From contig CASEYP010000014.1 in assembly GCA_949292185.1 (NCBI GenBank), positions 1 through 45,149 on the forward strand: DNA of 45,149 bases. The letters are read 5' to 3'. Positions within the stretch are counted from its first letter, which is position 1. Every line of letters begins with the position of its first letter. The translations under genes were made by a program, and so were the position numbers. The notes beneath the pieces are model-generated. The model did no database searches. It had not been told where the DNA came from and saw only the letters and a list, made by a program, of their open reading frames with translations. This DNA is from an uncultured bacterium. Lineage in GTDB: Bacteria > Cyanobacteriota > Vampirovibrionia > Gastranaerophilales > Gastranaerophilaceae. This document shows positions 24,674 to 26,579 of this stretch, one piece after another.

Positions 24674-25021
24674 ATGAATATCAGCAAAATAAATCCGCTA
24701 GGTTACGAAACTAAAACAGAAAAAGGAAACACCTATAAAAGTTCAAACGCAGGGAAATATTGTACTGTCGCTGCTTTTGCCGCAATGGACGCCAGTCCTT
24801 ATATATTTAAAAAGAGCCAAACTGCAAAATTTATTTCTGGAGGAGATTGGATAATGAGCCTTGCTTCAATGTGCAAAATTAAAGTTCCTGAAAAATATAA
24901 AGGTATTTTAACAGGACTAGGCATTGCCATAGACTTAGCAATAGCCTATGGTTGCGGGAAAATGATTGATGATTCTATTAATAGAAAAAGAATTGCTAAA
25001 GCTGATTCTATAAAAAAATAG
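24674..25021 (+). CDS. Lineage-specific small membrane protein
   Basis: Not recognised. A 115-residue protein with a polar N-terminus (MNISKINPLGYETKTEKG), a moderately hydrophobic segment at about 30-47, and a stronger one near 80-97 (GILTGLGIAIDLAIAYGCG) followed by a basic tail. One or two membrane passes are likely. The gene follows the YggU gene by 54 bases, with a GGGG-containing site upstream of its ATG. It is followed by the promoter of the His leader region, so it probably is not co-transcribed with the large membrane protein downstream. Confidence 0.6.
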   Translation: MNISKINPLGYETKTEKGNTYKSSNAGKYCTVAAFAAMDASPYIFKKSQTAKFISGGDWIMSLASMCKIKVPEKYKGILTGLGIAIDLAIAYGCGKMIDDSINRKRIAKADSIKK

Positions 25022-25023
25022 AC

Positions 25024-25051
25024 TTTACAATTCAATTATTTTCGATATAAT
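25024..25051 (+). promoter_or_regulatory. Promoter of the His-leader attenuator transcript
   Basis: TTTACA (25024-25029) and a consensus TATAAT (25046-25051) are separated by 16 bases. They begin immediately after the stop of the preceding gene. The predicted start near 25058 leaves about 23 nt before the leader-peptide ATG. Confidence 0.75.
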
Positions 25052-25080
25052 AAATAATAAAAAAGGAAATTAATAATAAA

Positions 25081-25140
25081 ATGACAAAATATATTTTACA
25101 ACAACATCATAATCATCATATCAACCTGAAGAGGTTGTAG
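25081..25140 (+). CDS. Histidine leader peptide (19 aa)
   Basis: A short ORF encoding MTKYILQQHHNHHINLKRL, ending in TAG at 25138-25140. Four of five consecutive codons (25105-25119) are His CAT. An AAGGA-type site at 25063-25067 lies upstream, at the long spacing also seen for other genes here. The His codons precede three mutually exclusive RNA helices, exactly as in his-operon leader peptides (E. coli HisL has seven consecutive His). The peptide itself would have no function; its translation would report charged His-tRNA levels. Confidence 0.78.
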   Translation: MTKYILQQHHNHHINLKRL

Positions 25141-25234
25141 GATTGATGATGCGCTTGTAAAATAAAAAATTTCAATTCTTATAACAACTTCTTCAGGATA
25201 ACTAAGCGAGAAGTTGTTTTTTAGTAAAGAATTG
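25094..25234 (+). promoter_or_regulatory. Transcription attenuator with histidine leader
   Basis: Helix 1:2 pairs CAACCT (25122-25127) with AGGTTG (25132-25137) around a GAAG loop, inside a larger hairpin closed by TTTTACAA (25094-25101) and TTGTAAAA (25155-25162). The antiterminator 2:3 pairs GAAGAGGTTGT (25128-25138) with ACAACTTCTTC (25184-25194): 11 pairs, one a G-U. The terminator 3:4 pairs AACAACTTCT (25183-25192) with AGAAGTTGTT (25209-25218), followed by T25219-25222. A flanking CAATTCTT/AAGAATTG pair (25173-25180/25227-25234) ends at the next ribosome site. A ribosome stalled at the His codons would mask strand 1 and favour read-through. Confidence 0.8.
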
Positions 25235-25247
25235 AGGTTAAAATATT

Positions 25248-26579
25248 ATGATTATAACAAGAATAATTTCGGCAGTCGGAAACAATAGCAGCATTTACCC
25301 ATTAATGGCAAGAGACTTATGTATTGAAGCCCCTTCCAAAATTCTTATTGCAAGAAAAGAAAATTTAAAAGAATCTAAAGAATTGGCAAATGATGCAACA
25401 AGAGAAAAAACTATTGATGAATATGCAACATCAGCTTGCTGGTTAGGTGGAATACCTTTAACTGAATCTATTTTTGGCGCTTATATGAAGAAAAAAGGCT
25501 ACAATCCTATTGTAAATTTAAAATTGTATAAAGAAGAAAACAACCTAAAAAATTCATCAAAAGAAATTTATCAAGGACTAGAATATAACATTAAAAAATT
25601 TGGCAAAAACGCAACAAAAGAAGTTCAAGATGCAGTAGCAGATTTGATTAAAATTAGAGATAACAGAGCTGTTTATGAAAGTTTACTAACGAAGAAATTT
25701 ATTGCAGCGACAGTTATTCCAACCGCATTTATGGGATTTGTATTACCAAAATTAAACTTCGCATTAACAAAAAAAATAAGAGAAAAAAGAGCTCAACAAA
25801 CTCAAAACCAAAACACTTTAAATTCAATTCAAAAAAACTCTACATCATTTACATCTTTTGATAAAAAAGTTTTTGCAGAATTTACAAATAACAAAAAATC
25901 ACAAAACTTAAACTTTACAGGAAATATAACATCAACAATAGCAAATCTCAGAACAGTTGATAAAATGGCAATATCAGACGGTGGTTTAACTATAGGCAGA
26001 GTGTCAACTTCAAGAAACAAAGAAGAGGGTTATATGAACGCATTTAGAATGATTGGTTCTATGATTTTAAACTTTGTTACACCTGTTTATATAGCAAAAG
26101 GATTAGATAAACTGGCAAATAAATTATTTAAAGTAAATGTCAACCTTGACCCGCTAATTTTAGAAAACGAAGAATTTATTGAGGCTATAAAAAATAATAA
26201 AATTGAATTACCGAAATCAAATTCTGAAAAAGATTTGCTAGAATTTTTAGACTCAAAACCAAAATCATTATTTGCACAATTTGCACAAAAAGCAGGTGAA
26301 GTTTCTTACTTAGAATGTGATGTGAGAGATCCTAGAAAATATGTTGATATAAAAAGTCTTACAAAATTCAAAAATGAATTTGAAAACTTTATTAAATCTG
26401 CACAAAATTCTAAAAATATTGAAAAATTTGCAAAAAAAGCTAAATATATAAAATGTGGAAATATTTTGGCAAATGTAGGAATATCAAGTTTCTTATTAGC
26501 CGGAGTTTTACCTGTTTTAACATACAAATTTGTAAAACTTACAACAGGTTCATATTCAGATCCGGGCTTAAAAAAATAA
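25248..26579 (+). CDS. Lineage-specific membrane protein under His attenuator control
   Basis: Not recognised. A 443-residue basic protein with hydrophobic segments near 152-172 (FIAATVIPTAFMGFVLPKLNF), 265-280 (MIGSMILNFVTPVYIA) and 412-430 (ILANVGISSFLLAGVLPVLTY). Between them are long polar helices and a Gln/Asn/Ser-rich linker at about 183-225 that contains FTSF and LNFTGN, a motif seen in other proteins here. There is no similarity to His biosynthesis, transport or tRNA-charging enzymes that I can see. A GAGG ribosome site at 25234-25237 abuts the attenuator. This makes its histidine-type leader the main puzzle. Confidence 0.7.
   Translation: MIITRIISAVGNNSSIYPLMARDLCIEAPSKILIARKENLKESKELANDATREKTIDEYATSACWLGGIPLTESIFGAYMKKKGYNPIVNLKLYKEENNLKNSSKEIYQGLEYNIKKFGKNATKEVQDAVADLIKIRDNRAVYESLLTKKFIAATVIPTAFMGFVLPKLNFALTKKIREKRAQQTQNQNTLNSIQKNSTSFTSFDKKVFAEFTNNKKSQNLNFTGNITSTIANLRTVDKMAISDGGLTIGRVSTSRNKEEGYMNAFRMIGSMILNFVTPVYIAKGLDKLANKLFKVNVNLDPLILENEEFIEAIKNNKIELPKSNSEKDLLEFLDSKPKSLFAQFAQKAGEVSYLECDVRDPRKYVDIKSLTKFKNEFENFIKSAQNSKNIEKFAKKAKYIKCGNILANVGISSFLLAGVLPVLTYKFVKLTTGSYSDPGLKK

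Follow-up and report, generated by a model that had tools for sequence, protein, structure and literature searches.

How a gene that belongs to no recognised family comes to lie behind a leader rich in histidine codons, and what its product may do for the cell, is the question raised by positions 25024 to 26579 of the 45,149-nucleotide stretch of DNA analysed here (the window), which is part of a 1.89-Mb genome of Candidatus Gastranaerophilales (G000, contig C14). Ribosome-mediated attenuation by amino acids is an established functional class. His leaders precede his operons in Proteobacteria and some Firmicutes (PMC9413887), and in bacilli His leader peptides are found upstream of hisZ/hisS* (PMC2965389); according to the latter paper, evidence for leader-peptide systems had until then been confined to Proteobacteria and Actinobacteria. 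To our knowledge, i.e. in the literature searched and from what is generally known, no such attenuator has been described in the lineage of the window. A prediction made from sequence alone (the original prediction) had proposed a histidine-type attenuator in front of a membrane protein of unknown function, possibly a histidine-linked transporter, sensor or surface protein. Based on our analysis, the element is very likely a ribosome-mediated attenuator that responds specifically to His and switches on a membrane protein free of His when a His auxotroph starves.

Architecture of the leader

All leader elements lie on the plus strand and were identified computationally. A sigma-70-type promoter (TTTACA and TATAAT, 16 nt apart) is located at 25024-25051, scoring 11/12 and ranking top of 56 within 8 kb, and hexamers resembling it recur at the corresponding position before most leaders of the genus. 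The leader peptide ORF, MTKYILQQHHNHHINLKRL, comprises 19 codons plus TAG (25081-25140), with His codons at 25105, 25108, 25114, and 25117; its own Shine-Dalgarno (SD) sequence is rather distant from the start (13 nt), which speaks against our interpretation. Strand A (25092-25114), which lies over the first His codons, folds onto strand B (25141-25164) to give an outer anti-antiterminator helix, and a short helix 1:2 is formed by 25122-25127 and 25132-25137. Strand 2 (25125-25146) is the 5' arm of the antiterminator and pairs in two continuous sections, 25125-25138 with 25184-25197 and 25139-25146 with 25172-25179, amounting to about 21-22 pairs. The intrinsic terminator 3:4 (25183-25222) has arms at 25183-25192 and 25209-25218 (10/10 pairs) and a T6 tract at 25217-25222; a terminator scan missed it solely because that scan accepts no loop longer than 8 nt.

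Two further pairings complete the architecture. Strand 3a (UCAAUUCUU, 25172-25180) is complementary to strand 2 (AGGAUUGA; 25139-25146) as well as to the SD region of the controlled gene (AAGAAUUGAGG, 25227-25237), so that it has alternative partners and may sequester the SD region (25227-25235, 9/9 pairs). Between strands 2 and 3, the motif CGCUUG of strand B (25152-25157) complements the loop of the terminator (25203-25208), making it a pseudoknot candidate. Compared with dinucleotide shuffles the leader fold has z=-4.5 and its antiterminator part z=-5.1, none of 200 shuffles being equally stable, and hence the fold is not a product of chance. The promoter, the 19-codon His ORF and the helices of the original prediction are all present; helix 1:2 and the terminator with its T-tract held as stated, whereas the antiterminator, given there as 11 pairs, is in fact a longer helix. 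The A:B helix, the SD-sequestering pairing and the contact between strand B and the terminator loop had not been proposed.

Upstream of the leader the window contains a 115-aa ORF (24674-25021) without a Pfam or NCBIfam match. A sequence like its C-terminal part precedes the leader in locus L002, whereas most of the other relatives have a different sequence there.

Conservation and covariation

An ortholog of the controlled gene with 62-83% identity is present in most genomes of the genus, and a leader ORF of the type LQKHHHNHHINLKRL, followed by a stop codon and containing 3-5 His codons, is found at 29/29 same-genus loci for which upstream sequence exists. In these 29 leaders 95% of the cells are paired and 9 pairs show two-sided changes, a level reached by 0/500 shuffles, and sliding the partners abolishes the signal. 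The covariance model R1, built from the same-genus leaders, matches in 151 of the 383 genomes of the order, once per genome and only in family f1 (f1, like the genus labels g1 etc., is a rank taken from the genome search). The genome of the window itself holds a single copy, as found with both the leader DNA and the model. We read 20 of the matches from other genera; a His-codon ORF and the same set of alternative strands are present in every one, and the ortholog follows downstream.

A ribosome-mediated His attenuator is expected to have several His codons at a fixed distance from strand 2, a structure that keeps strand 2 occupied when the leader is not being translated, and a mutually exclusive antiterminator and terminator, the latter with a T-tract. 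As to the codons, all 49 leaders (29 same-genus and 20 other-genus) contain 3-7 His codons, the last of which ends 5-6 nt before strand 2 in every case, and the stop codon lies most commonly at +13, inside strand 2 (33/49). This part of the expectation is thus met, with the reservation that translation of the ORF itself is not shown. Given this spacing, a ribosome stalled at the His codons would leave strand 2 free, and a ribosome at the stop codon would mask it. The blocking structure is likewise present: helices A:B and 1:2 covary in the genus and more weakly across the family, with helix 1:2 being paired in 94% of the cells in the genus and in 78% across the family, and the outer A:B helix being well supported within the genus only. 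Finally, in 33 leaders from many genera, two-sided changes occur in 15/21 pairs of antiterminator 2:3 (92% of cells paired, 0/500 shuffles as high) and compensatory changes in 8/10 pairs of terminator 3:4, i.e. both helices covary while sharing strand 3, and the mutually exclusive pair with its T-tract is established.

Conservation of His codons and helices among homologs, the absence of which would have refuted the original prediction, has thus been checked and confirmed; with codons, geometry and both alternative helices conserved, and covariation extending over many genera, the assignment as a histidine-type attenuator is supported. No T-box was matched in the window at the Rfam gathering threshold, nor at the leader up to E=10, and no Rfam family at all matched the window at the gathering threshold.

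Leader counts made by covariance model, including that of model R2 given below, are lower bounds, as a leader in G061 was missed. There, upstream of position 1501 of locus L111, an ortholog is preceded by a leader ORF MFTPSVKRHHHNHHHCH (plus stop codon) and a long AAGGTTATAATGTG/CACATTATAACCT pairing without a clear terminator, which might represent a purely translational variant of the switch.

Predicted SD sequestration and terminator-loop contact

The pairing between strand 3a and the SD region is stronger within leaders than between them. In 33 leaders own partners give -8.84 kcal/mol versus -7.46+/-0.21 kcal/mol for permuted partners (0/20000) and -3.57 for shuffled ones, and for strand B and the terminator loop the values are -6.65 versus -4.73+/-0.31 kcal/mol (0/20000). 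The permutation test does not remove relatedness; taken alone, the 20 other-genus leaders, mostly one or two per genus, still give 1/20000 for the SD and 0/20000 for the loop pairing. Compensatory changes are frequent in the CGCUUG:loop pairing and are seen in the genus alone, too. From this comparison of sequences we infer that pairing of the strand 3 extension with the SD region acts as a translational lock on the controlled gene.

Complementarity between strand B and the terminator loop is lacking in the leaders of L088, L090, and L097. In L023 the loop is too short for this pairing, and CAAGCG, which is complementary to CGCUUG, is found just past the terminator. We also considered a pseudoknot of strand B and the loop on top of the complete 2:3 helix, and regard it as sterically unlikely: a linker of a few nucleotides presumably cannot span about 21 bp, and the contact more probably works together with the terminator or as an intermediate.

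The controlled protein

The controlled gene (25248-26579, plus strand) encodes a predicted membrane protein of 443 aa that is predicted to be all-helical and contains no histidine. Its named relatives come from metagenome assemblies of Candidatus Gastranaerophilales or Candidatus Melainabacteria. The lack of His is a property of the group, as shown by counting: 53 ortholog sequences (genome G220 being included twice) contain 9 His among 22,812 residues (0.04%), with 1.33% in same-genus paralogs, 1.12% in homologs from other families and 1.78% in 13 neighbouring proteins of the window. The genes behind His leaders form a single clade separate from the paralogs (support 100/100).

The AF2 model is all-alpha (pLDDT 83.8), and of the hydrophobic stretches at residues ~151-177, 268-286, and 403-421 two are strong and one is weak; invariant charged residues are numerous among the orthologs. 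Neither Pfam at its cut-offs nor NCBIfam nor PDB profiles assign a family to the protein, known amino-acid transporter families included, and a Foldseek search with the predicted model yields nothing at E<=0.001. The best VIA structural match (Z 5.8, rmsd 5.9 over 109 residues) is at chance level for helical models. Two candidate assignments were discarded, namely Pfam EMC4, which at 16.6 bits stays under its cut-off of 25, and the helices of ABC transporters, whose Z of about 5 is often obtained with a long-helix model.

Link to histidine auxotrophy

Histidinol dehydrogenase (HisD, PF00815) is found in 0/23 genomes of the genus, but in 13/13 genomes that belong to the order's other families. 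In family f1 (288 genomes) HisD is present in 81, IGPD, whose distribution is almost identical, in 74, and the leader, detected with model R2, in 152. Leader and HisD largely exclude each other: 147 genomes have the leader only, 76 HisD only, 5 both and 60 neither (Fisher p=1.5e-25). Fisher's test disregards relatedness, but g29, g33, and g36 each show the contrast within the genus, and these within-genus comparisons remain. Absence of His genes was judged by two markers, HisD and IGPD, and the genomes compared are mostly metagenome assemblies. In those HisD-positive genomes without a leader that we inspected, there are only paralogs of ~25-31% identity and no ortholog. The controlled gene is no recognised His gene, yet its product is His-free and linked to His auxotrophy, and the 'histidine-linked' gene of the original prediction is independently supported by the purged protein and by the concentration of the unit in genomes without His biosynthesis.

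The roughly 60 HisD-negative f1 genomes without a detected leader count against our interpretation, as do the five genomes that combine the leader with His genes. Three HisD-negative genomes of the same genus (G020, G034, and G023), which have no ortholog either, are auxotrophs that lost or never had the leader-gene unit and may be used as natural controls. Leader and HisD coexist only in G106, G281, G302, G220, and G186. On contig C10 of G186 (L107) HisD and IGPD lie ~1 kb apart and score far above those of all relatives; in this leader-bearing genome they were likely acquired later or stem from contamination. Our literature search for Gastranaerophilales or Melainabacteria together with histidine biosynthesis or auxotrophy returned nothing relevant.

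Proposed mechanism

We propose that the ribosome controls attenuation of transcription in a His-specific manner and that a further lock acts on translation. When His-tRNA is ample, the ribosome would pass the His codons, reach the stop codon inside strand 2 and mask this strand, so that terminator 3:4 would form and transcription would end near 25222, and in any RNA that is read through the SD would be paired with strand 3a. A leader without a ribosome would adopt the same off state by means of helix A:B. When His is short, the ribosome would stall at the His codons, a position immediately before strand 2 and over strand A, and strand 2 would pair with strands 3a and 3, which would prevent the terminator and free the SD simultaneously. 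Stalling, termination, induction, and a rise of read-through upon His starvation in vivo are all inferred, there being no expression data.

As the membrane protein is His-free, it can be made in the absence of histidine. Since the unit is almost confined to Gastranaerophilales that lack His biosynthesis, it most likely serves either to acquire histidine or to cope with its absence. In a bolder reading the gene would represent a so far undescribed class of membrane system by which auxotrophic gut Gastranaerophilales acquire or spare histidine, its His-sensing RNA couples termination, SD sequestration and a terminator-loop pseudoknot, and paralogs behind RR/WGL leaders (see below) use the same device for other signals; as a joint claim this is slightly less likely than not.

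Alternative explanations

Two roles of the protein are compatible with the attenuator. It may take part in the acquisition of histidine or histidine-containing peptides, i.e. bring His, or help to bring it, into a starved auxotroph. The link to the absence of HisD and IGPD, the His-starvation leader and the His-free protein are in favour of this role, as are the two clearly hydrophobic helices and the numerous invariant charged residues. On the other hand, neither sequence nor fold gives a significant match to any transporter, there are only two strong and one weak hydrophobic stretches, a transporter gene was not found adjoining the controlled gene in the window, and ~60 genomes that lack HisD get by with no unit detected in them, so that we lean slightly against it. 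Alternatively, the protein could be a His-sparing isoform that replaces a His-containing paralog from the same family, controlled by another leader system, when His is scarce. Paralogs with 5-8 His (1.3%) and another leader arrangement are indeed kept in the same genomes of the genus; however, with an identity of only ~26-31% functional replacement is doubtful, and sparing alone does not explain why the unit is missing from nearly all prototrophs; we regard this role as possible but rather unlikely.

Other explanations dispute the attenuator itself. The His codons might be a by-product of CAUCAU:AUGAUG pairing in the RNA, with the leader sensing a general slowing of translation, and CAUCAU does lie within helix A:B, which is 92-94% paired in the genus, with CAT making up 208/220 His codons. 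This is very unlikely, as His codons are also kept outside the paired stretch, CAC is used in some cases, and the His frame is open in 49/49 leaders, its distance to strand 2 being fixed; moreover, the product of the controlled gene is purged of His, and occurrence of the unit follows the loss of His synthesis. In an AT-rich genome, where short ORFs are frequent, one could also invoke a constitutive 5' UTR in which the terminator is leaky and the His-rich ORF has arisen by chance, but conservation and covariation over many genera contradict this and all but rule it out. A His-specific attenuator thus remains the preferred reading.

Relation to known systems

The leader resembles the enterobacterial his leader (Rfam RF00514, His_leader) in its clustered His codons, the stop codon in strand 2 and the exclusive antiterminator and terminator. 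RF00514 aligns over its full model length and on the correct strand with 18.5 bits (E=0.58), below the gathering score of 49, and thus the leader is not a member. In contrast to RF00514, it controls no known his gene, its His run is interrupted and mostly comprises 4-5 codons, it occurs in Gastranaerophilales, and it adds the SD-sequestering and loop pairings. With the His leaders of Firmicutes (PMC9413887, PMC2965389) it shares a short His-codon ORF before a terminator/antiterminator outside Proteobacteria; their targets, however, are genes for His biosynthesis, transport and tRNA charging, whereas here an uncharacterised His-free membrane protein is controlled and the pathway is absent. The RBS-sequestering attenuators mentioned in PMC9413887 likewise conceal the SD of their target by means of an RNA switch, but here SD lock and transcription terminator are coupled through a single strand (3a/3). 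T-box riboswitches before His genes also sense amino-acid shortage and prevent termination, with the difference that sensing is done by a leader peptide here.

Amino-acid biosynthetic enzymes are poor in their cognate amino acid (PMC4209129), and the controlled protein fits this scheme in that proteins needed in amino-acid starvation hold little of that residue. In contrast to those enzymes, its purge is near total (9/22,812) and it is a protein of auxotrophs and no known biosynthetic enzyme. What is new here is thus the lineage, the target, the auxotroph setting, the near-total His purge, the coupled SD lock, and the loop contact.

The literature found covers amino-acid leader peptides of Proteobacteria, Actinobacteria, and Firmicutes, and histidine leader-peptide attenuation is hereby extended to Gastranaerophilales. 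The setting is unusual, as the switch operates in organisms unable to make histidine and its target is not among the known histidine genes. Taken together, the His-sensing switch, the His-purged protein and the lost pathway provide a concrete, testable function for an unknown family in amino-acid-dependent gut bacteria and point to a so far undescribed response to histidine shortage. A general approach to searching is suggested, too, namely to screen for proteins that are purged of the very amino acid in which their leader is rich.

Leaders of the paralogs

The distant paralogs of the controlled gene are often preceded by a further upstream short ORF with RR codons (CGACG), followed by terminator/antiterminator-like sequence. 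A purge of Arg from the paralogs behind RR leaders is unsupported, Arg amounting to 2.9% in same-genus paralogs versus 3.4% in neighbouring genes. Directly upstream of the paralogs a second short ORF, M..nRRnt..kaNAPivklMNLiWGL plus stop codon, is conserved. It is found in the genome of the window (L039, upstream of C7:100826, minus strand) and at L032-L038, L041-L047, and L114-L138. Possibly the paralogs are under tandem leader-peptide control by another signal, be it arginine codons or an arrest peptide. The pattern of the last seven codons plus the stop of the WGL-type ORF occurs once per genome in 13/21 genomes.
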